A stretch of 64,000 nucleotides of DNA from positions 1,994,001 to 2,058,000 of the forward strand of contig NZ_JAUTBJ010000002.1 in assembly GCF_030819175.1 (NCBI RefSeq). The letters are read 5' to 3'. The number at the start of each line of letters is the position of its first letter. Within the stretch, counting starts at the first letter, position 1. Position numbers and translations under genes: made by a program. This stretch comes from Sphingomonas sp. SORGH_AS_0879 (GTDB taxonomy: Bacteria; Pseudomonadota; Alphaproteobacteria; Sphingomonadales; Sphingomonadaceae). The notes below the pieces were generated by a model that was not told the DNA's origin, ran no database searches, and was given only the letters and a program-made list of their open reading frames with translations. This document shows, piece by piece, positions 4,693 to 42,271 of this stretch.

Positions 4693-5172
4693 ATGGTCGA
4701 TAGAGCCGAAGCGGAGCCGATCGCGGCCACGCCTCTGTTTCCCGTCGTGGCCGCGGCCCTGGTCGATGAAGCAGGACGGGTCCTGCTGCAACAGCGTCCG
4801 GCGGGAAAGAGTTTGGCCGGGCTGTGGGAGTTTCCGGGGGGCAAGATCGAGTCGGGGGAAAGTCCGGAGGCGGCGCTGATCCGCGAACTTCACGAGGAAC
4901 TGGCGATCACGGTCGAGCCCGTCGCCTTGGAGCCCGCCGGGTTCGCGACCGAGCCGCTGCCCGGTCGCCATCTCCTGCTGCTTCTCTATGTCATACGACG
5001 CTGGTCGGACACGCCGGTCGCGCTGGAGGCGGACGGCCTGATCTGGTGCGAGCCGGCGGCGATGGACGCATGGCCCATGCCGCCCGCCGATGTACCGCTG
5101 GTCCGCCAGCTTAGCGCCTACCTTGCCGACAGCACCAGTTGCGTCGGCGACGTGGACAGCGGAACGCTGTAA
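4693..5172 (+). CDS. mutT: Nudix hydrolase, MutT-type 8-oxo-dGTP diphosphatase
   Basis: A 159-residue MutT-like enzyme that would hydrolyse 8-oxo-dGTP and so prevent A:T to C:G transversions. The Nudix box lies at about 49-71: GKIESGE-x7-REL-x-EEL with all the metal-binding Glu residues; the usual final Gly is Ala (EELAI). The upstream VLLQQRPAGKSLAGLWEFPGG is typical of MutT. The last ~18 residues overlap the convergent gene ending at 5118, so the C-terminus extends beyond the family core (which ends near SAYLA). Assignment to MutT rather than another Nudix enzyme rests on the WEFPGGK context. Confidence 0.88.
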   Translation: MVDRAEAEPIAATPLFPVVAAALVDEAGRVLLQQRPAGKSLAGLWEFPGGKIESGESPEAALIRELHEELAITVEPVALEPAGFATEPLPGRHLLLLLYVIRRWSDTPVALEADGLIWCEPAAMDAWPMPPADVPLVRQLSAYLADSTSCVGDVDSGTL

Positions 5173-7865
5173 CCGCCGCGCTCCATCATGCCGCGATCGG
5201 GGCGATAGGTCCGGCCACCGGGCGTCGTCGTCTCGACGAACAGCCGCGCTGTCGGTGTCGCGGGATCGGCGGGGTCCAGGGTCAGGCGAACCGTCCGCGT
5301 CGCCGGATCATAATCGACCGCCGCGATCTTGCCCGCTTCCAGCGTCAGCCAGAGTCCGGCGGGCGCGACGAAGAAGCGGCTGCGCGCTCCGTCGCGTGGC
5401 TCGACATGGATCGTACCGCCGCTCTGCGACAGATTGCCGCCATAGCTCAGCCAGCCGAGCGCGGGGTCGTCGACCAGATAGGTCGCCGCCGCATAGGCAT
5501 GGCCGAAAAAGCCCATGCCGTAGTCGCCGCTATACGGGTCCCACTCCATCCGGTCGGGCCAGCTATGGAAGGCCGCCGAAGAGGCGCCCTGCTGATCGAT
5601 ATTGGTAATCCCGCCGAGCAGCCCGCCATAGGCGACGCGCAGCAAATGCGTGTCGCGCGGATCGCGGCGGAAGGAATCGAACAGCGGAATGGCGTTCAGC
5701 GTCGATCCGTAATGATGGATCTGCCGCTCCAGCCGGGGATATTTGCCGCCGTAGAGAAAGTCCCAATAGCGGCGCGCATTGCCGTTATAGCCCCAATGCG
5801 GGATCGACGGGTCATAGCCCAGTATCACCTCGCGCGTGACGTCCGCCTGCGGTCCGTATCCGAAATAGCGCATCCAGGCATAGACTTCCGCCTGGCCGGT
5901 CGAGTCCCAGGCCATCTCGCTACCGAACGGATATTTCAGGGTGCGCCAATGGTCCGCGCGCCCCTTCATCAGCCGCTCGACCCCGTCCGCCTTGGTCGTC
6001 CAGCCTTCGCGTTTCAGGTCGGTCAGGATGTCGACGAAGACATCGCCCTCCATCAACCCGAACTGCGCATAATGCGGCGCGTCGCGCATCATCGCGACGA
6101 TGGTTTGATAGGCATGGTCGAGATACCAGTCCCAGCCATGCACCTTGGTCATGCCGGGATGGTTGCGGGCGATGCGGTACAGCACCCAATGCCCCGCCGC
6201 GACATGGGGGTAGTTATAGGCGCGACCCAGATCGTCGGCCTGATCCTTCTTCCATGAGGTCCAGCTCTGCCAGTCCTTGGCGGGCTGATAGCGATCGGGG
6301 AAGGCGGCGGGGTCGTAATAGAACAGGCTCTTCTTCACCCCGCCCGCATGGGGGCCGTCGGCGACCTGGAGGCGGCCGACCACCGTCTTGTCGACCAGCT
6401 GCTCGATCCGCGCGATCTCGGCGGCATCGGGATTGTCGAGCTGCTTCATCACCGCCGCGACCCAGCTTCCCGCGCCGCCCTCGTCGCTCATTCCCGAAAT
6501 CCAGACGCGGGGATCGTCGGTGACGATCCGGTTCGCCTCGCGGTCATAGGTCAGGATGGCGGGGGAGCGGCCAAAGGGGTCGCCCTTGCCCTCGAACCAC
6601 TGTCGCGTGGTCGAGAAGCGGCCCAGATCGGCCATGGTCCGCTCGAGCGGCTTGGTGACGAAATACTGCACCGTCTGGACGCTGCCATCGGCATAGTTGA
6701 GGGTCAGGCGCGCGCGGCCCCATCGCCGTCCGCGCACCGACAGCCTGGTCCAGCCGGGCTTGCCGGTCTGGCGCGTCACCTCCAACGCACCCGCCGGATA
6801 GCTGGCGATGTTGGTGATGGCGGAGGCTGCGCGGACGAACAGCGTGGCGTCGAGGTCGGTCGGTACGACATAGCCGGGCACGCCGACCACCACCGGGCGC
6901 GCCTGCGCCGTCAGCGTTTGCTCTATCCCGCGAATGCTGGGCGAGGCGGCGAAGCGCAGGCCGATCTGGCGGCTCTCGCCCGGCGCCAGGCGGAAGCTGG
7001 TCGCCTCGTTCCAGGGTTGCCCCGCCTTGGCCCAGTCGGTCCGGGCATAGGCCGCGCTGGCGACCGTCCAGTCGTAAAATCCTTCCGAGGTCTGCGCACG
7101 CGGGCTCGCCTCCACGATCACCGCCTTGCCGCCTGTCTCCCGCATCGTCGGGACGGGGACATAGGCCTCTAGCGGAGTGTTCCGCTCGGGCAGGACCAGC
7201 AGCGCGGGGCCCGCGCCGTTCAGGCGAGTGACCTGAACATAGCCCGCATCCTGCCCGATATAGGGATCGGCGAAGCTCGCCTGGGCATGGGCCTGTTCCA
7301 GCGTGCGATCGGAGATGATGTTGTCGAACACCATCGGCATACCCAGTCCGCCGACCTCCACCGGATCGCGCGATGCGTTGGTCAGGATGAAGCGCAGGGC
7401 GGGCACGCCCCCTTCATTCACCCATTCGCGGGTGATGCGCAGCGGCAGGCCGGTGCCCATCGTCGCGGTGATGTCCGCCGCCGCCAGCACCTTGCCGCGC
7501 GCCGGGAGAGGCCGCACCGGCTTGCGGTCGCGAGAGGAGGAATAATCCTGCCACGGTCCCGCGCGGGTGCGGAGCCGCAGATGGATATCGCCCAAGTGAT
7601 TATAGCCATTGCCCGCCCGCTCCTTCGACCGGCCGACCGGGAGGAAATCGAAGCCCGGCGTGCCGATGGGCGACAGGCTGCGCGCCGTCTGGCTGGCCGG
7701 GTCGAGCCGCAGGCGGAACGCGCCGACACGTAAGGTGGATGTGGCGGAACGCGTCGGAACCGCGCGGCGCTTGGGCGTTTCCGCCGACCCCGCGCCCTGC
7801 CAGGCCGCCGCCATCGACAGGGTCGCCAACGTGACCGGCAGGATCCGCAAGATCTTGTGACGCAT
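5118..7865 (-). CDS. Large exported protein, DUF5695-like, probably carbohydrate-active
   Basis: A 915-residue protein with a clear signal peptide (MRHKILRILPVTLATLSMAAA, cleavage near 28). The start at 7865 is chosen over a far-upstream frame opening because only it gives a leader. The N-terminal part is beta-rich, with the segment GFDFLPVG and NGYNHLGDIHLRLR; the C-terminal half is rich in Trp, Tyr and His, as in alpha/alpha-toroid carbohydrate enzymes. I believe it belongs to the DUF5695 family but cannot confirm this by search, and no catalytic residues can be named. It is divergent from the GH127 gene across about 100 bases that hold a shared operator, so it probably works on the same glycan outside the cytoplasm. 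Its 3' end overlaps mutT by 55 bases. Confidence 0.75.
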   Translation of the reverse strand: MRHKILRILPVTLATLSMAAAWQGAGSAETPKRRAVPTRSATSTLRVGAFRLRLDPASQTARSLSPIGTPGFDFLPVGRSKERAGNGYNHLGDIHLRLRTRAGPWQDYSSSRDRKPVRPLPARGKVLAAADITATMGTGLPLRITREWVNEGGVPALRFILTNASRDPVEVGGLGMPMVFDNIISDRTLEQAHAQASFADPYIGQDAGYVQVTRLNGAGPALLVLPERNTPLEAYVPVPTMRETGGKAVIVEASPRAQTSEGFYDWTVASAAYARTDWAKAGQPWNEATSFRLAPGESRQIGLRFAASPSIRGIEQTLTAQARPVVVGVPGYVVPTDLDATLFVRAASAITNIASYPAGALEVTRQTGKPGWTRLSVRGRRWGRARLTLNYADGSVQTVQYFVTKPLERTMADLGRFSTTRQWFEGKGDPFGRSPAILTYDREANRIVTDDPRVWISGMSDEGGAGSWVAAVMKQLDNPDAAEIARIEQLVDKTVVGRLQVADGPHAGGVKKSLFYYDPAAFPDRYQPAKDWQSWTSWKKDQADDLGRAYNYPHVAAGHWVLYRIARNHPGMTKVHGWDWYLDHAYQTIVAMMRDAPHYAQFGLMEGDVFVDILTDLKREGWTTKADGVERLMKGRADHWRTLKYPFGSEMAWDSTGQAEVYAWMRYFGYGPQADVTREVILGYDPSIPHWGYNGNARRYWDFLYGGKYPRLERQIHHYGSTLNAIPLFDSFRRDPRDTHLLRVAYGGLLGGITNIDQQGASSAAFHSWPDRMEWDPYSGDYGMGFFGHAYAAATYLVDDPALGWLSYGGNLSQSGGTIHVEPRDGARSRFFVAPAGLWLTLEAGKIAAVDYDPATRTVRLTLDPADPATPTARLFVETTTPGGRTYRPDRGMMERGGYSVPLSTSPTQLVLSAR

Positions 7866-7912
7866 CGAAATTCTCTCCCTATCGGGGTTCGCCGCGCCGC
7901 TATTCGTCACGA

Positions 7913-7950
7913 TTGACCCCCATGTCATCGCCCGATATGGTATACAGTAT
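7913..7950 (+). promoter_or_regulatory. Promoter with GTATAC operator ahead of the GH127 operon
   Basis: A -35 like TTGACC (7913-7918) is separated by 17 bases from TATGGT (7936-7941). The imperfect dyad GATATGGTATACAGTAT (7934-7950) covers the -10. A site of the same type, with the same CGATTGACC at nearly the same distance, precedes the DapA-family gene (13174-13214). FCD-type GntR repressors often bind short palindromes with a TA-rich core, so the regulator at 14154 is the natural candidate. The site could also control the divergent DUF5695-like gene. Confidence 0.55.
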
Positions 7951-7965
7951 AGGCTGGAGAGCAAG

Positions 7966-10341
7966 ATGCTGCGGACAAATAGACGCGATTGGATGCGGGG
8001 AGCGGCGACGGCCGCATTACTGGGTGCGGCACCCCGTGCGGTGGCGGCGGGCGCCTCGATATTGCCGTCCAAGGCGGAGCCTCTGCCGCTGACGGCGGTA
8101 CGGCTGCGCCCCTCGGTCTATGCGACCGCGGTGGAGACCAACCGCCGCTATCTCTATCGCCTGAGCCCCGACCGGCTGCTCCACAATTTCCGCGTCTATG
8201 CGGGGCTGGAGGCCAAGGCGCCCATCTATGGCGGGTGGGAAAGCGACACGATCGCGGGCCATACGCTGGGCCATTACATGTCGGCGCTGGTGCTGACCTG
8301 GCAGCAGACGGGCGATCCCGAGATGCGCCGCCGCGCCGATTACATCGTGACCGAACTGGCCGAGGCGCAGGACAAGCGCGGCAATGGCTATGTCGGCGCG
8401 CTGGGGCGCAAGCGGCCCGACGGCAAGGTCGTCGATGGCGAGGAAATCTTCCCCGAGATCATGGCAGGCAAAATCAAGTCGGGCGGCTTCGACCTGAACG
8501 GAAGCTGGTCACCGCTCTACACGGTGCACAAGCTGTTCGCGGGGCTGCTCGACATTCATGGCGGCTGGGGCAACGCCCAGGCGCTGGACGTCGCGGTCAA
8601 GCTGGGCGGCTATTTCGCGCGGGTCTTCGCCGCGCTGGACGATGCCCGGCTGCAAGAGGTGCTGGGTTGCGAATATGGCGGGCTGAACGAGAGTTTCGCC
8701 GAACTCTATCAGCGGACGAACGACCGCCAGTGGCTGGTGCTGGCCGAGCGCATCTATGACCGCAAAGTGCTCGACCCGCTGGTGGCGGGGGAGGACAAGC
8801 TCGCCAATTTCCACGCCAATACGCAGGTGCCCAAGCTGATCGGGCTGGCGCGTATCCATGAGATCACCGGCAAGGCCGAACCGGCCAAGGGCGCCAGCTT
8901 CTTCTGGGAAAGGGTGACCGGGCATCACAGCTATGTCATCGGCGGGAACGCCGACCGGGAATATTTCTCCGCTCCCGACACGATTGCGCGCCACATCACC
9001 GACCAGACGTGCGAGCATTGCAACACCTATAACATGATGAAGCTGACCCGGCATCTGTACGGGTGGAAGCCGGATGGGCGGCTGTTCGACTATTATGAAC
9101 GCGCGCATCTGAACCATGTCATGGCGGCGCAACATCCGGAGAATGGCGGCTTCACCTATATGACGCCGCTGATGTCGGGGGCGGCGCGCAGCTTCTCCTC
9201 GACCGCCGACGATGCCTTCTGGTGCTGTGTCGGCTCGGGGATGGAGGCGCATGCCAAGCATGGCGAGTCCATCTTCTGGCAGGGCGGAGAGACGCTGTTC
9301 GTCAATCTCTACATCCCCTCGGAAGCGCGTTGGGAAAAGCGGGGGGCGCTGGTGACGCTCGACACCGCCTATCCGATGGAGGGGAGCAGCGTCGTGACCT
9401 TCACCCATCTGGCGCGGCCGGGGCGTTTCCCGCTGGCGCTGCGCGTGCCGGGCTGGACGAACGGACAGGCGGAGATTTCGGTCAACGGCCAGCCGGTCAC
9501 GCCGGTGATGGAGCGCGGCTATGCCGTGGTCGATCGCCGTTGGAAGGCGGGGGACAAGGTGGAAATCCGCCTGCCGCTCGAATTGCGGCTGGAGACCACG
9601 CCGGGCGATGATACGGTCGTCGCGGTGGTGCGTGGGCCGATGGTGATGGCCGCCGACCTCAGCCCTTCGGAAACGCCGTGGGATGCGCCCGACCCGGCGA
9701 TGGTCGGGGCCAATCCGCTGGCGTCCTTCACCGCCGCCGATGCGGCCAAGCCGCGCTATGCGGTGGGCGATGCGTTCCGCCCTAGGGGGCTGACCTTCGT
9801 TCCCTTCTACAGCCAGTATGACCGACGCAGCGCCGTCTATTTCAAACGCTTCACAGAAAGCGGCTGGAAGGCGGAGGAGGCCAATTACCTCGCCGAACAG
9901 GCGGCGGCGCGCGATGTCGCGGCCCGCTCGGTCGACGTCATGTATCTGGGCGAGATGCAGCCCGAGCGTGACCATGGGCTGACCTCGGATATTTCCTATC
10001 CGGTCTCCTATCTCGGCAAGCAGGGGCGCGATGCCCGCTCGGGCGGCTATTTCGAGTTCACCATGGCGGTGCGGCCAGGCCCGCTGATCCTACAGGCGAC
10101 CTATTGGGGCGAGGAGCGCGCGCGCGACTTCGACATATTGGTCGACAATGTGAAGATCGCGACCCAGCATCTGGAGAATGACAAGCCGGGCAAGTTCTTC
10201 AACGTCGACTATCCGCTGGCCGAAGCCCTGACCAAGGGGAAGAAGAACGTCCGCATCCGCGTGGTGCCGCACGACCGCAGCACTGCCGGACCGATCTTCG
10301 GCATGCGCCTGTTCACCGCGAAGAAGGCGACGACCGCGTGA
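7966..10341 (+). CDS. Tat-exported beta-L-arabinofuranosidase, GH127/GH146 type
   Basis: A 791-residue glycoside hydrolase of the former DUF1680 group, whose characterised members remove beta-L-arabinofuranose from plant glycans. The N-terminus has a twin-arginine signal (RRDWMRGAATAALLGAA, cleavage near residue 27). The (alpha/alpha)6 barrel contains GWESDTIAGHTLGHY. The zinc and thiol site of the family is intact: E350 and C352 (CEHCNTYNM) plus C420-C421 (FWCCVGSGME), matching E338, C340, C417 and C418 of Bifidobacterium HypBA1, where Cys417 is the nucleophile. A C-terminal beta domain (about 660-790) resembles the DUF6805 module. GGAGAG lies 8 bases before the ATG. Its stop overlaps the next gene (GTGA). 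Linkage specificity is inferred from the family. Confidence 0.9.
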   Translation: MLRTNRRDWMRGAATAALLGAAPRAVAAGASILPSKAEPLPLTAVRLRPSVYATAVETNRRYLYRLSPDRLLHNFRVYAGLEAKAPIYGGWESDTIAGHTLGHYMSALVLTWQQTGDPEMRRRADYIVTELAEAQDKRGNGYVGALGRKRPDGKVVDGEEIFPEIMAGKIKSGGFDLNGSWSPLYTVHKLFAGLLDIHGGWGNAQALDVAVKLGGYFARVFAALDDARLQEVLGCEYGGLNESFAELYQRTNDRQWLVLAERIYDRKVLDPLVAGEDKLANFHANTQVPKLIGLARIHEITGKAEPAKGASFFWERVTGHHSYVIGGNADREYFSAPDTIARHITDQTCEHCNTYNMMKLTRHLYGWKPDGRLFDYYERAHLNHVMAAQHPENGGFTYMTPLMSGAARSFSSTADDAFWCCVGSGMEAHAKHGESIFWQGGETLFVNLYIPSEARWEKRGALVTLDTAYPMEGSSVVTFTHLARPGRFPLALRVPGWTNGQAEISVNGQPVTPVMERGYAVVDRRWKAGDKVEIRLPLELRLETTPGDDTVVAVVRGPMVMAADLSPSETPWDAPDPAMVGANPLASFTAADAAKPRYAVGDAFRPRGLTFVPFYSQYDRRSAVYFKRFTESGWKAEEANYLAEQAAARDVAARSVDVMYLGEMQPERDHGLTSDISYPVSYLGKQGRDARSGGYFEFTMAVRPGPLILQATYWGEERARDFDILVDNVKIATQHLENDKPGKFFNVDYPLAEALTKGKKNVRIRVVPHDRSTAGPIFGMRLFTAKKATTA

Positions 10342-11348
10342 CCGGTATCCGCATGACGCTGGACGAATTGCGGACGCTCGCCCGTGCCAAGCTGCTGGGC
10401 GCGGGGCTTGCCCCCGCTCATGCCGAGGCGGTGGCGGAGACGATGGTGGCGGGCGAGCGGGACGGTTGCGCCTCGCACGGGATCTACCGCCTGCTGGTCG
10501 CGGTTTCCAGCATCGACAAGGGCGTCGTCGTGCCCGATGCCGAACCGGTCCTGTCCGAACCGGCGCGTGCGCTGGTGCGGGTCGATGGCGGCGGCGGCTT
10601 CGCGCAACTCGCCTTCCAGACCGGCAAGTCGATGCTGGTCGAAAAGGCCAAGGCGAATGGTATCGCGGCGCTGGCGCTCAACAATGTCGTCCATTTCGCC
10701 GCGCTCTGGCCCGAGGTTGAGGAACTGGCCGAGGCGGGGTTGGTCGCCTTGGCCTTCACCCCCAGCCATGCCTGGGTCGCGCCGTCGGGCGGGGCGGAGC
10801 CGGTGTTCGGCACCAACCCGATCGCCTTTGGCTGGCCACGCCCCGATGGCCCGCCCTTCGTCTTCGACTTCGCGACGAGCATGGTCGCGCGGGGTGAGAT
10901 CGAGCTTCACCGGCGCGCGGGCAAGTCGGTTCCCGACGACTGGGGCGTGGATGCGGACGGCCATGCGACGACCGATCCGGCTGCGATCCTGTCGGGCGCG
11001 ATGCGGACCTTTGGCGGGCATAAGGGATCGGCGCTGGCGGCGATGGTCGAGCTGCTCGCCGGGCCGCTGATCGGCGACATGACCAGCCGCGAGTCGATCG
11101 AATGGGACGCGGGTCGGGGCGGTTCGCCCTTGGGTGGCGAGCTGATCATCGCCATCGATCCCAAGGGCTTTCTGGGCGATCTTCTGCCGGAGCATCAGGC
11201 GCGGGCGGAGGCGATGTTCGGGGCGATCACGGAGCAGGGGGCGCGTCTGCCCTCGGCGCGCCGCTATGCCGCGCGGGCGGTGTCACTGGTCGAGGGGGTG
11301 GAGATTTCCCCCGACCTGCACCGCGACGTGAGGGCGCTGAACGGTTGA
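10338..11348 (+). CDS. Ldh-family NAD(P)-dependent oxidoreductase
   Basis: A 336-residue member of the malate/L-lactate dehydrogenase-like (Ldh_2) family. This family also includes the delta1-piperidine-2-carboxylate / delta1-pyrroline-2-carboxylate reductases. The N-terminal motif with RDGCASHGIYRL carries the catalytic His, and FGTNPIAFG and FDFATSMVARGE are typical nucleotide- and substrate-site segments. The GTG at 10338 overlaps the upstream stop; an ATG at 10353 is an alternative start. Beside a DapA-family enzyme and an amino-acid permease, a cyclic imine reductase in proline or hydroxyproline metabolism is a reasonable guess, but sugar-acid dehydrogenases share the fold. It has no leader, so it is cytoplasmic. 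Confidence 0.85.
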   Translation: MTGIRMTLDELRTLARAKLLGAGLAPAHAEAVAETMVAGERDGCASHGIYRLLVAVSSIDKGVVVPDAEPVLSEPARALVRVDGGGGFAQLAFQTGKSMLVEKAKANGIAALALNNVVHFAALWPEVEELAEAGLVALAFTPSHAWVAPSGGAEPVFGTNPIAFGWPRPDGPPFVFDFATSMVARGEIELHRRAGKSVPDDWGVDADGHATTDPAAILSGAMRTFGGHKGSALAAMVELLAGPLIGDMTSRESIEWDAGRGGSPLGGELIIAIDPKGFLGDLLPEHQARAEAMFGAITEQGARLPSARRYAARAVSLVEGVEISPDLHRDVRALNG

Positions 11349-11364
11349 AAAAGGGAAATCGAGC

Positions 11365-13170
11365 ATGACGAACCGGACCATGATGCTGCTGACCGGTGTG
11401 GCGCTGGCGATCCTGCCGGTCGGGATCGCCGATGCGAAGGTCGCGGCTCCGGCGCGGTCGGGCAAGACGGTGGCGAAGGCGGGAGAGACGGCGGCGGACG
11501 CCCGCTTCCGCACGCTGGCGGAGGCGGAGTATAAATGGCGGATCAGCCAGAGCGCCGCCGATGATGACAGCGGCAGCGCCGGTTCGCGCAAGCTCCCCGA
11601 TGTCGGCCCCGCCGCCCAGGCCGCGCGGCTGGCGCGGTGGGAGGCGACGGCCAAGGCGCTGGAGGCGATCGATCCCGCCGGCCTCTCGCCCGATATCCGC
11701 ACCGATTACATGGTCTATCGCGGTCAGATCGACGCGCTGCTCGCCGCCCAGCGGTTCCGCGAATATGAAAAGCCGTTGAACGCCGACACCAGCTTCTGGG
11801 GCAATCTGGCGAGCTGGGCGCGGGGCAGCTTCACCAAGGAAAGCCAGTATCGCGACTATATCGCCATGCTGCACCAGATGCCGCGCTATTTCGATCAGCA
11901 GATCGCGAATATGCGCGCCGGGCTCGACCGGGGCTTCACCGTGCCGCGCGTCACATTGAAGGGGCGGGACATCGGCGTTGCGCAGGTGATCGATGCGGGA
12001 GCGGGCGAGGGCCAGCCCTTCTACGAACCGTTCAAGACGATGCCCGCCAATATGGCCCCCGCGACGGCGGCGGCGCTGAGGGCCGAGGCGAAGGCGGCGA
12101 TCCGCGACGATGTGCTGCCCGCGCATCAGCGGCTGCTGACCTTCCTGCGCAACGACTATATGCCGCGCGCGCAGGTCAGCACGGCGGCCTATGACCTGCC
12201 CGATGGCAAGGCCTATTACCGGTCCAAGATTCGTGAATATGTGACCGCCGACATGACGCCCGAACAGGTCCACGCCATCGGCCTGTCGGAGATGCAGCGC
12301 ATCCGCGCGCGGATGGACGGCGTAATGAAGGAAGTGAAGTTCAAGGGTGACTTCCCCGCCTTCCTGACCTTCCTGCGGACCGACCCGCAATTCTACGCCA
12401 AGACGCCGCAGGACCTGCTCGACCGGGCGGCCTGGCTCGCCAAGAGTTTCGACGGGATCGCGTCGGACTGGTTCGGACGCCTGCCGCGCAGCCGATTCGC
12501 GATCAAGCCGGTGCCCGCCGACCTCGCGCCCTTCTACACCGCCGGGCGTGGCGGGACGGGCATCTATCTGGTCAACACCTATGACCTGCCGTCGCGCTCG
12601 CTCTATGCGCTGCCCGCGCTGACCCTGCACGAAAGCGCGCCGGGTCATGCGTTCCAGATGCCGCTCGCCGCCGAGAACAAGGACCTGCCCGCCTTCCGCC
12701 GCGACAGCTATCTGTCAGCCTATGGCGAGGGCTGGGCGCTCTATTGCGAGGCGTTGGGCGAGGATATGGGTTTCTACAAGACGCCCTATGACCGGTTCGG
12801 CATGCTGTCCTATCAGGCGTGGCGCGCCGCGCGGCTGGTCGTCGATACCGGCATCCACGCCATGGGCTGGAGCCGGGAAAAGGCGCAGGCCTATCTCCAC
12901 GACAATACCGCGCTGTCGGATCATGAGATCGAAACCGAGGTCGATCGCTATATCGCCTGGCCGGGACAGGCGCTGTCCTATTATATGGGGCAGCTCGCCT
13001 TTCAGCGGGCGCGGGCCAAGTCGGAAAAGGCCTTGGGGGCGAAGTTCAATATTCGCGCCTGGCACGATGCGATGCTGCAACTGGGATATGTGCCGCTCGG
13101 CGTGATCGACCAGCGGAACGACCGCTTCATCGCAGAGGGCGGCAAGGGGCCTTATCCCGATGAGGAATGA
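11365..13170 (+). CDS. Exported DUF885-family metallopeptidase
   Basis: A 601-residue protein of the DUF885 family. The signal peptide (TMMLLTGVALAILPVGIADA) is cut near residue 24. The family zinc motif HExxPGH is present as LHESAPGHAFQ, and YGEGWALYCEALGEDMG further on probably supplies another metal ligand (Glu). DUF885 proteins are predicted zinc peptidases or carboxypeptidases; the substrate is unknown. An AAAGGGA ribosome-binding site lies 8 bases before the ATG. It begins 16 bases after the Ldh-family gene, as the third gene of the arabinosidase operon, so a role in trimming peptides freed from a glycoprotein fits the context. The protein is full length. Confidence 0.88.
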   Translation: MTNRTMMLLTGVALAILPVGIADAKVAAPARSGKTVAKAGETAADARFRTLAEAEYKWRISQSAADDDSGSAGSRKLPDVGPAAQAARLARWEATAKALEAIDPAGLSPDIRTDYMVYRGQIDALLAAQRFREYEKPLNADTSFWGNLASWARGSFTKESQYRDYIAMLHQMPRYFDQQIANMRAGLDRGFTVPRVTLKGRDIGVAQVIDAGAGEGQPFYEPFKTMPANMAPATAAALRAEAKAAIRDDVLPAHQRLLTFLRNDYMPRAQVSTAAYDLPDGKAYYRSKIREYVTADMTPEQVHAIGLSEMQRIRARMDGVMKEVKFKGDFPAFLTFLRTDPQFYAKTPQDLLDRAAWLAKSFDGIASDWFGRLPRSRFAIKPVPADLAPFYTAGRGGTGIYLVNTYDLPSRSLYALPALTLHESAPGHAFQMPLAAENKDLPAFRRDSYLSAYGEGWALYCEALGEDMGFYKTPYDRFGMLSYQAWRAARLVVDTGIHAMGWSREKAQAYLHDNTALSDHEIETEVDRYIAWPGQALSYYMGQLAFQRARAKSEKALGAKFNIRAWHDAMLQLGYVPLGVIDQRNDRFIAEGGKGPYPDEE

Positions 13171-13173
13171 CGA

Positions 13174-13214
13174 TTGACCTGAGGCAAGCGCCGCGCTAAA
13201 CAGTATACGATATC
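13174..13214 (+). promoter_or_regulatory. Promoter with GTATAC operator ahead of the DapA-family gene
   Basis: TTGACC (13174-13179), 17 bases, then TAAACA (13197-13202). The sequence AACAGTATACGATATC (13199-13214) overlaps the -10; its reverse complement reads GATATCGTATACTGTT and matches the site at 7934-7950 at most positions. The GTG start is 26 bases downstream of the dyad. Placement over the -10 suggests repression. Confidence 0.55.
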
Positions 13215-13239
13215 TAAAACAATAGCAGGAAGACAGATT

Positions 13240-14154
13240 GTGAGCATCGGCTGGCGCGGCGTATTCCCCGCAGTGACGACCCAAATCCGGGAAGATCTGT
13301 CGATCGACCTCGCCGATACGCAGCGCGTCGTCGACGACCTGATCCGCGACGGCGTGACCGGCGTGATCGCGCTGGGCACGGTCGGCGAGAACAACTCGCT
13401 CGACTATGATGAGAAGGTCATGGTGCTGACCGGGATCGTCGAGGCGGTGGCGGGCCGCGTGCCGGTCATCACCGGCGTGTCCGAGTACGACACCCGCCGC
13501 GCGGTCCGTTACGCGCAGGCCGCCGAAAAGGCCGGTGCCGACGGCCTGATGCTGCTGCCGCCGATGGTCTATGTGCCCAAGGCGCATGAGCTGGTGAACC
13601 ACTTCAAGGGCGTGGCGGACCAGACCGGCCTGCCGATCATGCTCTATAACAACCCGCCCGCCTATCGCACGGTCATCGACCAGACGGTGCTGGAAGCGCT
13701 GGTCGATGTGAAGAACATCGTCGCGGTCAAGGAATCGGCCCCCGACACGCGCCGCTTCACCGATTTCCGCAACGCGTTCGGCGATCGCTACACCCTGTTC
13801 GCCGGGTTGGACGATGTGGCGCTGGAGGGGCTGTACCTCGGCGCTCAGGGTTGGGTCTCGGGCCTGACCAACGCCTTTCCGAAGGAGTCGGTCGAACTGG
13901 TCGCGGCGTTCGATCGCGGCGATCATGCCAAGGCGATGGAAATCTATCGCTGGTTCATGCCGCTCCTCCACCTCGATGCCGAGCATGATCTGGTCCAGTC
14001 GATCAAGCTGGCCGAGCAGGTCATGGGGCGCGGTTCGGAGCGCGTGCTGCCGCCGCGCTACGTGCTGGAAGGCGAGCGCCGCGCCGAGGTGATCGCGATG
14101 GTCGAAAAGGCCGCCGCGACCCGTCCGACGCTGGGCCAGGCCAAGGCCGCCTGA
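13240..14154 (+). CDS. DapA-family aldolase/dehydratase/deaminase of the accessory locus
   Basis: A 304-residue TIM-barrel Schiff-base enzyme of the dihydrodipicolinate synthase superfamily. The Schiff-base lysine is K164 (VAVKESAPD) and the catalytic tyrosine Y136 (MLYNNPPAYRT). The GTTGE motif is changed to GTVGEN, so it is not true DapA; that gene is at 41372. Superfamily members in similar settings include delta1-pyrroline-4-hydroxy-2-carboxylate deaminase (hydroxyproline catabolism) and 2-keto-3-deoxy-L-arabinonate dehydratase. The neighbouring amino-acid permease favours the first, and arabinosidase would also allow the second. GTG start with AGGAAG upstream. The stop overlaps the GntR start by one base (TGATG). 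Confidence 0.85.
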   Translation: MSIGWRGVFPAVTTQIREDLSIDLADTQRVVDDLIRDGVTGVIALGTVGENNSLDYDEKVMVLTGIVEAVAGRVPVITGVSEYDTRRAVRYAQAAEKAGADGLMLLPPMVYVPKAHELVNHFKGVADQTGLPIMLYNNPPAYRTVIDQTVLEALVDVKNIVAVKESAPDTRRFTDFRNAFGDRYTLFAGLDDVALEGLYLGAQGWVSGLTNAFPKESVELVAAFDRGDHAKAMEIYRWFMPLLHLDAEHDLVQSIKLAEQVMGRGSERVLPPRYVLEGERRAEVIAMVEKAAATRPTLGQAKAA

Positions 14155-14864
14155 TGGCGACGATGCCCTCGCCCCTGGACAATGCGCTCGATGACGGGCG
14201 TCATCGGGGCGAGGGCGTCATCGTCGTCCAGACGCTGGCGGACCGTATCTTCGCCATCGTCCGGGAACGGATCATCGCGGGGGCGATCCCGCCGGACCGT
14301 CCGATCCGTCAGGACGCGCTGGCCGCCGAACTGGGGGTCAGCAAGATTCCGCTGCGCGAGGCGATGGCCCGGCTGGAGCAGGAAGGGCTGCTCCACGGTG
14401 TCGCCAATCGCGGCTATATGATCGGCGCGCTGTCCGTCGAGCAGGCCGAGGATATCTACGGCCTTCGCCTGAAGATCGAGCCGATGGCGGCGGCGCAAGC
14501 CTCACTGATCGCCGATGACGAGGATCGCGCCAAGCTGGTCGCAGCCTTCGAGGCGTTGGACCAGGCCGCGACCAGCGACCTCGCGCGCGTCGCCATCTGC
14601 AACCGCCAGTTCCACATGGCCATGGTCCGCCCGGTGCGGCGGCCCCTGACCATCCAGCTCGTGCGCCAGCTCGCGGTCCTGGCCGAGCGTTACGTCGTCG
14701 CCCATCTGCAACCCGCAGGGCGCGATGCGCGGGCACATCTTGAACATCGCGAACAACTTGACGCCTTCATGGCGCGCGATGCGGAACGGCTTCAGGGATT
14801 GCTTGATGCCCATATCCGGTCCACGCTGATCGACTTGAAAGGCGGGTTCGCACCCGTCGTCTGA
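14154..14864 (+). CDS. GntR-family regulator with FCD domain
   Basis: A 236-residue transcriptional regulator. The winged helix-turn-helix occupies about residues 25-90 (IRQDALAAELGVSKIPLREAM is the recognition region) and the FCD ligand-binding domain about 95-230, with the His/Asp metal residues expected (AICNRQFHMAM and EHREQLDAF). It is cotranscribed with the DapA-family gene and followed by the permease, so it probably controls the whole locus through the GTATAC sites at 7934 and 13199. FCD regulators commonly respond to small carboxylic acids, which fits a keto-acid or imino-acid intermediate. It is clearly paralogous to the regulator at 22307-22951. Confidence 0.9.
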   Translation: MATMPSPLDNALDDGRHRGEGVIVVQTLADRIFAIVRERIIAGAIPPDRPIRQDALAAELGVSKIPLREAMARLEQEGLLHGVANRGYMIGALSVEQAEDIYGLRLKIEPMAAAQASLIADDEDRAKLVAAFEALDQAATSDLARVAICNRQFHMAMVRPVRRPLTIQLVRQLAVLAERYVVAHLQPAGRDARAHLEHREQLDAFMARDAERLQGLLDAHIRSTLIDLKGGFAPVV

Positions 14865-14915
14865 CAATCATAAGCCCATGGGACATGGAGCCTTGGGGCG
14901 GGGGGATTTCCAACG

Positions 14916-16319
14916 ATGTTCGGACCGTTGAAACCGCTGGGCAGCGCGACCCAGCATGGCGAGGGGCAGGCGCTGGCCAAGACGCTCAGCTGGCCGCACC
15001 TGATCGCCTTGGGGGTCGGCGCGATCGTCGGCACCGGCATTTACACGCTGACCGGCGTCGGCGCGGAACGGGCGGGGCCCGCCGTCATCCTGGCCTTCGC
15101 GATCGCGGGTGCGGTGTGCGCCTGTGCCGCGCTCGCCTATGCCGAACTGGCCACGCTGATCCCGGCGGCGGGCAGCGCCTATACCTTCAGCTACACCGCG
15201 CTGGGCGAGACGCTCGCCTGGATCGTCGGGTGGAGCCTGATCCTCGAATATTCGCTGGCCTGTTCGACCGTGGCGGTCGGCTGGTCGGGCTATCTGGTCG
15301 GCTGGATACAGGCGGCGGGGGTCCATCTGCCGCCCGAACTCCTGTCAGGGCCGCATGGCGGCGGCATCATCAACCTGCCCGCCGTGCTGGTCGCGCTGTC
15401 GGTCATGGGGATGCTGGTCGCGGGGACGCGGGAGAGTGCGACGCTCAACATCATCCTGGTCATCGTGAAGCTGGTCGCGCTGGGCGTGTTCATCGCCTTC
15501 GCCATGCCCGCGTTCAACGCCGACAACCTTCATCCCTTCATGCCCTATGGCTTCGCCGCGCATGAGGTGGACGGAGCCAAGCGCGGTGTGATGGCGGCGG
15601 CGGCGATCGTCTTCTTCGCCTTTTACGGGTTCGACGCGGTGGCGACCTCGGCCGAGGAAGCCAAGAATCCCGGCCGCGACCTGACCATCGGCATCGTCGG
15701 TTCGATGCTGGTCTGCACCCTGATCTACATGGCGGTCGCGGTCGCCGCGATCGGATCGCTGCCCTTCCAGCAACTCGCCAATTCGCCCGAACCGCTGGCG
15801 CTCGTCCTGCGCTCGCTGGGCCAGCCGACGGCGGCGCATCTGATCGCGCTCGCCGCCGTCATCGCGCTGCCCTCGGTCATCCTGGTCATGATGTACGGGC
15901 AGAGCCGCATCTTCTTCACCATGGCGCGCGACGGGTTGCTGCCCCAGTCGCTGGCGGTGGTCAGCAAGCGGAGCGGCGCGCCGACCCGCATCACGCTGGT
16001 CACGGGCGTGTCGATCGCGCTGGTCGCGGGCATCTTCCGTCTGGACGAGATCGCCGAGTTGGCCAATGCGGGCACGCTATTGGCGTTCATTTCGGTGGGC
16101 GCCTGCCTGATGGTGCTGCGGCGCAAGGCGCCCGAGGCCAAGCGGCTGTTCCGTTGCCCGCAACCCTATCTGGTCGGCACGCTGGCGATCCTGGGCTGCC
16201 TCTATCTGCTGTTCAGCCTGCCCAGCTCGACCATCGTCCGTTTCGCGATCTGGAACGCGGCGGGGCTGGCCTTCTATTTCGCCTATGGGCGGCGGCGCAG
16301 CGCCCTGGCGCGCGGCTGA
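14916..16319 (+). CDS. APC-family amino-acid permease (cationic amino acid transporter type)
   Basis: A 467-residue inner-membrane transporter of the amino acid-polyamine-organocation superfamily. The first helix carries the substrate-binding signature GVGAIVGTGIYTLTG. About 12 hydrophobic segments follow, with the conserved loop FYGFDAVATSAEEAKNPGRD typical of the CAT/YhdG branch. It begins 51 bases after the GntR gene and is the last gene of that operon, so it would bring in the substrate or a released amino acid. Specificity cannot be read from sequence. The tail ends in a basic cytoplasmic stretch. Confidence 0.9.
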   Translation: MFGPLKPLGSATQHGEGQALAKTLSWPHLIALGVGAIVGTGIYTLTGVGAERAGPAVILAFAIAGAVCACAALAYAELATLIPAAGSAYTFSYTALGETLAWIVGWSLILEYSLACSTVAVGWSGYLVGWIQAAGVHLPPELLSGPHGGGIINLPAVLVALSVMGMLVAGTRESATLNIILVIVKLVALGVFIAFAMPAFNADNLHPFMPYGFAAHEVDGAKRGVMAAAAIVFFAFYGFDAVATSAEEAKNPGRDLTIGIVGSMLVCTLIYMAVAVAAIGSLPFQQLANSPEPLALVLRSLGQPTAAHLIALAAVIALPSVILVMMYGQSRIFFTMARDGLLPQSLAVVSKRSGAPTRITLVTGVSIALVAGIFRLDEIAELANAGTLLAFISVGACLMVLRRKAPEAKRLFRCPQPYLVGTLAILGCLYLLFSLPSSTIVRFAIWNAAGLAFYFAYGRRRSALARG

Positions 16320-22306: not shown

Positions 22307-22951
22307 TCAGCGGCCCAGTTGCGCGCGCAGATCGACCAGCGTCGCGCCGATATGCTCGGTCAGGAAACCGGCGACCCGCGCCTCGTCGCGCGCCAGCCAG
22401 GCGTCGAGCAATTCCTGATGTTCCTTGTGCGCGCGGGTCTCGCGCCCGGCTGGCTTGAGATGCTGGACGACATAGCGCTCGGCCAGCACCTGCAACCGCT
22501 CGATCAACTGAAAGGTCAGCGCGGCCCCCAGCGGGCGGACCAGCGCCAGATGGAAGGCCCGGTTGCGCAGGGCGACCTCATGCAACGCCTCATGCGCCGC
22601 AACGTCCAGCGCAGCCAGCGCGTCCCTCGCGACCTGATGATCGGCGGCGGTGGCGACCCGGCTGGCGCGCGCGGCGGCATCGGGTTCGAGCGCCAGGCGG
22701 AGCTCATAGATTTCCTCCGCCTCGCTGGCCCCCAGCGAACGGACGAAGAAGCCGCGATTGGCCTGGCTGGTCAGCAGCCCTTCCTGCTCCAGGCGGGCCA
22801 GCGCCTCGCGCAGCGGGATCTTGCTGACGCCCAGTTCGTTGGCGAGCGCATCCTGGCGGATCGGCTGATCTTCGGTCAGGTCGCCGCTGATGATCCGTTC
22901 GCGAATGATCGTGAAGATCTGTTCGGACAGGGTGCGAACGACAAGGCTCAT
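22307..22951 (-). CDS. GntR-family regulator with FCD domain (second copy)
   Basis: A 214-residue regulator with the same architecture as the gene at 14154-14864 and extended similarity to it: both share IRQDALA-ELGVSKIPLREA-ARLEQEGLL, and the FCD domains align throughout (LAERYVV-HL-PAGR-RAH-EH). A paralogous pair is therefore likely. GAGAGA lies 7 bases before the ATG. No GTATAC palindrome is seen in its 100-base upstream region, though ATTCTGGAAT at about 22990 is a short dyad. The target is unknown; the adjacent genes (ndh, nadE) are not obvious partners. Confidence 0.88.
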   Translation of the reverse strand: MSLVVRTLSEQIFTIIRERIISGDLTEDQPIRQDALANELGVSKIPLREALARLEQEGLLTSQANRGFFVRSLGASEAEEIYELRLALEPDAAARASRVATAADHQVARDALAALDVAAHEALHEVALRNRAFHLALVRPLGAALTFQLIERLQVLAERYVVQHLKPAGRETRAHKEHQELLDAWLARDEARVAGFLTEHIGATLVDLRAQLGR

Positions 22952-41371: not shown

Positions 41372-42271
41372 ATGTTTTCAGGGTCCATCCCGGCGCTTGT
41401 GACGCCGTTCGACGATCGGGGCGATCATGTCGGCGGAGCATTCGACGAAGCGAAATTCCGGGATTTCGTCGAATGGCAGATTGCGGAGGGATCGTCGGCG
41501 CTGGTCGCATGCGGCACCACGGGCGAGGCGGCGACCATGCCCAAGGACGAGCATTTCCATGTCGTCCGGGTCTGCGTCGACCAGGCGCGCGGGCGGGTGC
41601 CGGTGATCGCCGGGGCGGGCTCCAACGATACGATCGTGGCGATCGAGAATCTGAAAGCCGCGCAGCAAGCGGGCGCCGATGCCGCGCTGATGGTGCCGCC
41701 CTATTACAACCGCCCCAGCCAGGAGGGGATCGCCCGCCACTTCGCCGAGCTGGCCAAGTCCGCCCCGCTGCCGATCGTGCTCTATAACGTGCCGGGGCGC
41801 ACGGTGACGGATATCCAGCCCGCGACGCTGATCCGCATCGTCCAGGCCGCGCCGGAGGTGTTCGTCGGCGTCAAGGATGCCAGCGGCGCGCTGGCCCGGG
41901 TGTCGCATCATCGCGGTGCGCTCGGCGGCGATTTCTGCCAGCTTTCGGGCAATGACGATCTGGCCCTGGCGTTCAACGCGATAGGCGGGGTGGGCTGTAT
42001 CTCGGTCACCGCCAATGTCGCGCCGCGCCTGTGCGCGCAGTTTCAGGCGGCGTGCGCGGCGGGGGATATGGCGCGCGCGCTGGAACTGCACGACCGGCTG
42101 TTCCCGCTGCACGAGGCGATGTTCGGCGATGCCTCGCCGGGGCCCGTCAAATATGCGCTCAGCCGGATCATCGGGCATTTCCCCACCGGCGTCCGCCTGC
42201 CCATGACCTGGCCGTCCGAAGCGGCACGTGCGCAGGTCGATGCCGCCTTGGCACATGCCGGACTGATCTGA
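41372..42271 (+). CDS. dapA: 4-hydroxy-tetrahydrodipicolinate synthase
   Basis: A 299-residue DapA for lysine and diaminopimelate synthesis, condensing pyruvate with aspartate semialdehyde. Motifs: GTTGEAATM, VPPYYNRPSQEG, the catalytic Tyr in IVLYNVPGRT, and the Schiff-base Lys in VGVKDASG. These differ from the DapA-family paralogue at 13240, which has altered GTVGEN and YNNPPAYRT. Length and N-terminus (MFSGSIPALVTPF) are standard. Next to slt and smpB. Confidence 0.95.
   Translation: MFSGSIPALVTPFDDRGDHVGGAFDEAKFRDFVEWQIAEGSSALVACGTTGEAATMPKDEHFHVVRVCVDQARGRVPVIAGAGSNDTIVAIENLKAAQQAGADAALMVPPYYNRPSQEGIARHFAELAKSAPLPIVLYNVPGRTVTDIQPATLIRIVQAAPEVFVGVKDASGALARVSHHRGALGGDFCQLSGNDDLALAFNAIGGVGCISVTANVAPRLCAQFQAACAAGDMARALELHDRLFPLHEAMFGDASPGPVKYALSRIIGHFPTGVRLPMTWPSEAARAQVDAALAHAGLI

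Follow-up and report, generated by a model that had tools for sequence, protein, structure and literature searches.

Why does a sphingomonad keep genes for exported glycosidase-like proteins next to genes resembling those for hydroxyproline breakdown? The question is raised by positions 5118 to 16319 of a 64-kb stretch, henceforth the window, of the genome of Sphingomonas sp. SORGH_AS_0879 (4.33 Mb in two contigs). A sequence-only reading of the window had listed seven genes there, encoding a DUF5695 protein, a GH127-type arabinofuranosidase, an Ldh-family oxidoreductase, a DUF885 protein, a DapA-family enzyme, a GntR/FCD regulator and an amino-acid permease, and had proposed that sugars are removed from plant cell-wall protein outside the cell and the hydroxyproline is taken in and degraded. 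All seven genes are present where they had been placed, as judged from open reading frames and Pfam matches (Table 1), and comparative genomics together with a shared operator-like site supports the idea of outside deglycosylation combined with hydroxyproline catabolism. We consider it highly probable that the locus belongs to a larger regulon, scattered over the genome, through which hydroxyproline-rich glycoproteins of plants are used. A more specific version, to which we give a moderate preference, holds that one GntR-type switch governs sugar removal by GH146, GH43, GH27 and DUF5695 proteins, peptide cleavage and hydroxyproline catabolism, even across replicons, and that these glycoproteins are the substrate of a new enzyme family, DUF5695.

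Conserved gene neighbourhood

Relatives of the locus were collected through its dapA-family gene. Of 515 confirmed matches, the 80 that match best, and hence close kin, are referred to as the 80 relatives; 21 kb was fetched per locus, and genes were called by codon usage as learnt from the window. Among named organisms, the nearest relatives of the dapA-family protein are found in Sphingomonas sp. Leaf21, S. yabuuchiae, S. sanguinis and others of that group. A gene for 4-hydroxyproline epimerase (HypE) lies directly downstream of the dapA-family gene in 69 of the 80 relatives, and two of the 11 loci without it (L069 and L078) end just behind DapA. With variations, the recurring order is GH127-Ldh-DUF885-(GH43, TonB)-M24-DAO-DapA-HypE-GntR-permease-(GH27), GH127 being present in 55 loci, Ldh in 57, DUF885 in 63, the DAO-type oxidase in 52, the M24 peptidase in 47, GH43 in 29, GH27 in 21, DUF5695 in 21 and the permease in 59. 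Dozens of species show this order, far more than chance would produce. Like the window, loci L003-L009, from the seven nearest relatives, have no HypE, DAO or M24 gene within the fetched 21 kb.

The association was also assessed in an even draw of 119 genomes of the family and in a separate set of 337 genomes of the class. In the family, DapA occurs in 14 genomes and GH127, at an identity of at least 55%, in nine, eight of which are among those 14, the own genome included (hypergeometric P = 3.3e-8, with an identity limit chosen after seeing the identity table; here as elsewhere, P-values take no account of shared ancestry). GH127 lies at most 10 kb from DapA in seven of these eight genomes and on another contig in one. 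With the GH127 limit set at E ≤ 1e-80, nine of 12 GH127 genomes carry DapA. DUF5695 occurs in six of the 119 genomes, and in five of the six it lies less than 500 bases from GH127. At the class level (GH127 at E ≤ 1e-80, DapA at E ≤ 1e-60), GH127 is present in four genomes and DapA in 46; besides the own genome, both occur only in G396, a member of another family, where they are 10 kb apart.

A site shared by sugar-removal and hydroxyproline genes

A palindrome search of divergent intergenic regions returned GTATAC-centred repeats. A 17-column matrix (consensus nnATACCGTATACGATA) was learnt from 54 DAO/DapA intergenic regions, two of them duplicates and none from the own genome or its seven nearest relatives, and 104 loci (2.07 Mb) were scanned for sites of at least 12 bits, genes starting less than 250 bases from a locus end being excluded from the tally. 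For the two families that supplied the training regions, the site lies upstream of DapA in 94 of 98 cases and of DAO in 56 of 63. Among families not used for training, it lies upstream of GH127 in 40 of 47, DUF5695 in 22 of 26 and two TonB-receptor families in 13 of 14 and 15 of 17; of the other genes, 24 of 688 have it. In most cases a single site lies between the divergent genes of a pair, be it GH127 and DUF5695 or DAO and DapA, so that the counts within each pair are not independent. The 104 loci include four duplicate pairs, one own-genome locus (L103) and one locus of 37% GC (L106) in which no genes were called and which adds bases only; with the four duplicates and the own-genome locus removed, the tally is 38 of 43 for GH127, 20 of 23 for DUF5695 and 22 of 686 for other genes. 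When 25 column-permuted matrices were used, GH127 reached a mean of 0.6 and a maximum of 5 of 47, and DapA reached 16 of 98 once.

The site lies upstream of HypE in none of 85 cases, of Ldh in 6 of 60, of DUF885 in 8 of 78 and of GntR in 11 of 69, several of the last being shared with a divergent DAO gene; HypE, Ldh, DUF885 and GntR, like GH43, GH27 and M24, mostly sit behind another cluster gene. The other site-bearing genes include a Pro_racemase member nearest to trans-3-hydroxyproline dehydratase models, a POT peptide transporter, an aldehyde dehydrogenase and GH97. In an Asticcacaulis locus (L079, 17686-20912), a single strong site of 25.4 bits lies between divergent GH97 and GH27 genes, which perhaps serve alpha-galactose removal within the regulon.

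In the own genome, 142 kb was scanned, comprising the window and four stretches picked for homologues of cluster genes; the outcome is thus a test of those genes, not a tally for the entire genome. Six places score at least 17 bits (Table 1), against 0.017 expected. They tie the sugar half of the system to the hydroxyproline half, standing before GH127/DUF5695, DapA, DAO/epimerase, M24, GH43 and a metallopeptidase-like/GH27 pair. The string ATATSGTATAC matches exactly at 7935-7945 and, with at most one mismatch, twice in the window against 0.17 expected, a count of two being reached in 1 of 100 shuffles. In S. parapaucimobilis (NZ_CP155752), sites precede DAO/HypE and M24, and DapA and GH127 lie on another replicon. 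Because the GTATAC-centred site is common to both groups of genes, sugar removal and hydroxyproline breakdown probably belong to one regulon.

A second GntR/FCD gene lies in the window at 22307-22951 (minus strand). Its product is about 58% identical to the operon regulator encoded at 14154-14864 and outscores it in 46 of 69 comparisons with related GntR proteins from the fetched loci; the window thus holds two candidate HypR-like regulators.

The genes of the locus form two units. GH127, Ldh and DUF885 are codirectional, with DUF5695 diverging from GH127, and the second unit consists of the dapA-family gene followed by GntR and the permease. The DUF5695 gene had been given a start at 8072; the open reading frame makes 7865 the most likely start.

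Table 1. Features of the locus and operator-like sites of the own genome (window positions unless a locus is named)
Feature	Position	Strand	Support
Exported DUF5695 protein, 915 aa	5118..7865	-	PF18951, 1254 bits on queried 5118-7847
Operator-like 17-bp site between DUF5695 and GH127	7936..7952	-	21.2 bits, matrix scan
GH127/GH146-group beta-L-arabinofuranosidase-type protein, 791 aa	7966..10341	+	PF07944, PF20736, DUF6805
Ldh_2-family oxidoreductase, probable delta1-pyrroline-2-carboxylate (/piperideine) reductase	10338..11348	+	Ldh_2 family
Exported DUF885 protein, probable peptidase	11365..13170	+	PF05960, 512.6 bits
Operator-like 17-bp site upstream of dapA-family gene	13196..13212	+	19.9 bits
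DHDPS-superfamily enzyme, probable delta1-pyrroline-4-hydroxy-2-carboxylate deaminase	13240..14154	+	PF00701
GntR/FCD regulator, candidate HypR-like	14154..14864	+	PF00392, PF07729
APC-family amino-acid permease, candidate (hydroxy)proline importer	14916..16319	+	PF13520
Operator-like site, DAO/HypE	L086
Operator-like site, M24	L086
Operator-like site, 27 bases before GH43 gene	L112 (113-kb contig)
Operator-like site upstream of metallopeptidase-like/GH27 pair	L113

Candidate genes for hydroxyproline catabolism

The dapA-family protein belongs to the dihydrodipicolinate synthase (DHDPS) superfamily. It scores 180.6 bits on the dapA equivalog model, below the cut-off of 206.15, and the genome holds another, true-DHDPS-like copy at about window position 41375; on these grounds a plain dapA gene was rejected. 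In alignment, the protein retains the Schiff-base lysine and the tyrosine, whereas compared with the other copy GTVGE replaces GTTGE and the arginine after YN.P is absent, which bears out the changed active-site loop seen by the sequence-only reading. None of the curated models for delta1-pyrroline-4-hydroxy-2-carboxylate deaminase activity passed its cut-off with this protein. From its family and its neighbours, it is a probable delta1-pyrroline-4-hydroxy-2-carboxylate deaminase.

G047, the ninth GH127 genome of the family draw, has no window-type DapA and carries instead a DHDPS 93% identical to that of the Sinorhizobium meliloti hydroxyproline cluster and about 30% identical to the window's protein. 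It lies beside GH127, GH43, TonB plug protein and metallopeptidase-like genes, in that order, with the site at both ends. This exchange of DHDPS types points to the same pathway step for both. We take the S. meliloti protein to be HypD from its cluster and from the naming of HypD in the part of PMC6608401 available.

An epimerase, an oxidase and a semialdehyde dehydrogenase had been said to be missing from the window, and tblastn at 1e-10 agrees, finding no epimerase, DAO or member of one aldehyde dehydrogenase type in its 64 kb. The proposed search for them elsewhere in the genome succeeded for the epimerase and a candidate oxidase and failed for the semialdehyde dehydrogenase, one type of which was sought. 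Genes for the epimerase, a DAO-type oxidase and an M24 peptidase stand together on contig 2 at about 998.5-1002.4 kb, the epimerase at about 999.8 kb, some 1 Mb from the window. The epimerase (L086, 9787-10800) scores 544 bits on PRK13971 against a cut-off of 376, as a 4-hydroxyproline 2-epimerase should, and is the one full-length Pro_racemase member of the genome, which holds two further weak, partial matches below cut-off. It carries the MCGH and DRSPCGTG cysteines, presumably the catalytic pair. The DAO-family gene (L086, 8476-9753) is divergent from it, its candidate role as D-hydroxyproline oxidase resting at the family level, and the M24 peptidase, of Xaa-Pro type, adjoins the epimerase.

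The best relatives of the Ldh protein in the PDB are 1wtj, 2cwf and 2cwh, a piperideine-2-carboxylate reductase (240.8 bits against 137.6 for the next), and it shares 55% identity with the Ldh encoded in the hydroxyproline cluster of S. meliloti. It is probably a pyrroline-2-carboxylate reductase of the MLD2/Ldh_2 type; the accessible part of one report describes members of this superfamily near proline-racemase genes that reduce the proline ketimine (PMC4113996). Taken together, HypE behind DapA in 69 of 80 relatives, the epimerase, DAO and M24 genes of the own genome and the S. meliloti-like Ldh strongly support the hydroxyproline half of the proposal.

Exported glycosidase- and peptidase-like proteins

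The GH127-type protein had been described as a Tat-exported enzyme with an E-x-C/CC site. The site and the twin arginine stand: E350/C352 and C420/C421 are invariant in 22 aligned sequences and align with those of 5opj, and R6 and R7 near the N-terminus are nearly invariant and fit Tat export. The family label does not. The protein scores 623.7 bits against 5opj, which we take to be the GH146 enzyme BT0349, and 80.8 bits against 3wkw, presumably the GH127 enzyme HypBA1; classical GH127 HypBA1 membership was rejected on these scores, and the nearest structure to this beta-L-arabinofuranosidase-type enzyme is a GH146 one. Published GH146 enzymes, in the accessible parts of the reports, include XeHypBA1 and Bll4HypBA1 for arabinofuranose beta-linked to hydroxyproline and others for arabinan and arabinogalactan-protein (PMC10850190, PMC6085000). 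The genome carries a second GH127-family gene, 40% identical (L103, G000:C2:578001-596000), with no site of at least 8 bits in the surrounding 18 kb.

The DUF5695 protein is a distant relative of PL27 by profile, with weak but significant similarity, and by fold, a beta-sandwich plus an (alpha/alpha)6 domain; a comparison with the PL27 member BACCELL_00875 found it related in both fold and sequence. A phmmer search against the PDB gave nothing meaningful, the relation being visible by profile and fold only. While sharing fold and profile similarity with the PL27 lyases BACCELL_00875 and BT0263, it differs from them in being about 15% identical, longer and in a Pfam family of its own. It is accordingly described here as a predicted exported carbohydrate-active enzyme, distantly related to rhamnose-glucuronate lyases. 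PL27 comprises rhamnose-glucuronate lyases of gum arabic, according to the part of PMC8377490 available.

The DUF885 protein has a signal-like N-terminus, and its three solved relatives are uncharacterized proteins or lipoproteins; by family it is a probable peptidase. Literature mentioning DUF5695 or DUF885 by name gave, at the level of listings, no function for either.

Two further proteins match no Pfam family. One, encoded behind a site and paired with GH27 in the own genome (L113, 10818-11627, minus strand), has with its relatives (cluster c17) the HExxH-like motif HEFSH and is possibly a new peptidase of the regulon. The other, of 793 aa, is encoded in G396 (L105, 5882-8263, plus strand) with a site upstream and diverges from GH127.

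Contrary observations and alternative explanations

Several observations weigh against a single regulon for hydroxyproline-rich glycoproteins. GH127 at 55% identity or more is absent from six of the 14 family genomes with DapA. In the plasmids of S. hankookensis (L119) and Sphingomonas sp. R1 (pR1a, L118), DUF5695 and GH127-Ldh-DUF885 are present with the site, and the fetched 18-26 kb contains no dapA-family gene. In G077, a GH127/DUF5695 pair without the site stands amid dehydratase genes and genes of the gluconolactonase and sugar-oxidation types. G047 holds two more such pairs, accompanied by arabinofuranosidase-type genes, and in neither does the site occur at GH127. In the relatives, GH43 (0 of 29), GH27 (1 of 22) and M24 (3 of 59) seldom carry the site themselves and are mostly internal to the cluster. 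No site was found in the rhizobial loci L117, L120 and L121, so it is not a universal hydroxyproline operator. As to alpha-ketoglutarate semialdehyde dehydrogenase, a search at E ≤ 1e-100 with the one aldehyde dehydrogenase type taken from the clusters of some relatives, in which 12 of 19 candidates were scored, did not find it in the own genome; other types were not searched. The source of the Ldh substrate is uncertain because the own genome has only one full-length Pro_racemase member and no separate trans-3-hydroxyproline dehydratase.

The relatives of DUF5695, moreover, act on rhamnose-glucuronate, pointing to arabinogalactan-protein. The sugar part could target that protein or pectic arabinan side chains, with hydroxyproline catabolism co-regulated for a by-product protein core and the hydroxyproline-arabinosides of extensin not the main substrate; we regard this as possible, if unlikely. 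Besides the kinship of DUF5695 with the gum arabic lyases, it is favoured by the presence on pR1a of genes for rhamnogalacturonan lyase and acetylesterase next to DUF5695 and GH127 and, in the accessible part of PMC10850190, by a GH146 relative, Bll3HypBA1, that degrades arabinogalactan-protein and arabinan, and by the position of BT0349 in a rhamnogalacturonan I locus. Other observations speak against it. No beta-galactanase gene stands among the annotated clusters, many clusters being unannotated and no search having been aimed at one. The own-genome GH43 gene and GH27 unit carry the site, and GH97 and GH27 share one in the Asticcacaulis relative. Galactosyl-serine of extensin is alpha-linked. 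As far as the available sources go, GH43, GH27 and GH97 fit the alpha-1,3-arabinofuranose and galactosyl-serine of extensin, and Xanthomonas euvesicatoria removes hydroxyproline-arabinosides with GH43, GH121 and GH146 enzymes. Given the resemblance of DUF5695 to the PL27 lyases, the target may be extensin, arabinogalactan-protein or both.

The DHDPS-family protein might instead be an L-2-keto-3-deoxyarabinonate dehydratase serving the arabinose released by GH127; both reactions give alpha-ketoglutarate semialdehyde. A homologue in Rhizobium etli (p42c, L117), 72% identical, adjoins an annotated L-arabinonate dehydratase gene, and no epimerase gene lies within 9 kb on either side, a further observation that weighs against a role in hydroxyproline breakdown. 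Neither does one lie within 9 kb of the 73% identical homologue in Neorhizobium galegae, but that gene stands with M24 and DAO-like genes, and R. etli retains an M24 fragment. A role in L-arabinose oxidation was set aside on the adjacency of HypE in 69 of 80 relatives and on the replacement in G047, which puts the S. meliloti-type DHDPS in the same place with the same site; we rate it improbable. The R. etli fragment (L117, 7956-8216), beside the dapA homologue, is an 87-residue M24 peptidase match and an apparent remnant.

Least probable of all, to the point where we give it little weight, is an ordinary hydroxyproline/D-proline locus with GH127 and DUF5695 as chance neighbours and the site a generic promoter feature. 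The A/T-rich core of the site could coincide with a promoter element, and hydroxyproline comes also from collagen and peptide antibiotics. However, the site marks GH127 far more often than other genes, before and after deduplication; it is lacking at the second GH127-family gene of the own genome; and the pairing of GH127 with DapA is seen in different genera and also outside the family.

Model and relation to known systems

Starting from the protein families, the clustering and the shared site, we infer enzyme activities, a substrate, an uptake route, induction and the pairing of regulator and site as follows. TonB receptors, which bear the site in relatives, would carry glycopeptides into the periplasm, where the exported GH146-type enzyme would strip beta-L-arabinofuranose, aided by GH43, GH27 and the PL27-like DUF5695 protein. 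DUF885 and co-regulated peptidases would open the hydroxyproline-rich peptide, the permease would import hydroxyproline or small peptides, and the cytosolic Xaa-Pro-type M24 peptidase would free hydroxyproline. The epimerase, DAO-type oxidase and DHDPS-family enzyme would then convert trans-4-hydroxy-L-proline to alpha-ketoglutarate semialdehyde, and Ldh may reduce pyrroline-2-carboxylate, from D-proline or 3-hydroxyproline, to proline. A GntR/FCD regulator would switch the units via the shared GTATAC-centred operator.

The S. meliloti hyp cluster and the Streptomyces coelicolor HypR regulon combine 4-hydroxyproline epimerase, oxidase, DHDPS-type deaminase and GntR-type regulator, and the former also has an Ldh gene; all of these have known or predicted counterparts here. 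Here, by contrast, exported glycosidases, a PL27-like protein and exported DUF885 share the site, the genes are dispersed, and transport is by an APC permease instead of an ABC system; the window's DapA shares only about 30% identity with its S. meliloti counterpart, and the GTATAC site is unlike the motif of HypR in S. coelicolor. The XeHypBA1/XeHypAA/XeHypBA2 system of X. euvesicatoria and HypBA of Bifidobacterium, as described in the accessible parts of PMC6085000 and PMC10850190, resemble the present set in combining a GH146-type enzyme with GH43, used there for hydroxyproline-linked arabinofuranosides, and in Xanthomonas a prolyl-oligopeptidase-type gene lies nearby. They also include GH121, for which no search was made here. 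They differ in taking the sugar, no hydroxyproline catabolism being described in those parts. Nor did the literature searched, mostly outside subscription journals, contain a description of hydroxyproline catabolism combined with these glycosidases. The pathway and enzyme classes are known; what appears to be new in that literature is a common site linking hydroxyproline catabolism with deglycosylation and peptide cleavage.

Hydroxyproline-rich glycoproteins belong to the tough components of plant walls, and the bacterial systems described, in the sources as available, take the sugar (Xanthomonas, Bifidobacterium) or use free hydroxyproline. The GTATAC site offers a handle for finding further members of the regulon. 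If the proposal is true, it would provide a first clue to the function of DUF5695 and of the metallopeptidase-motif protein without a Pfam family, and the regulon would make the feeding of plant-living sphingomonads on extensin or arabinogalactan-protein directly testable.

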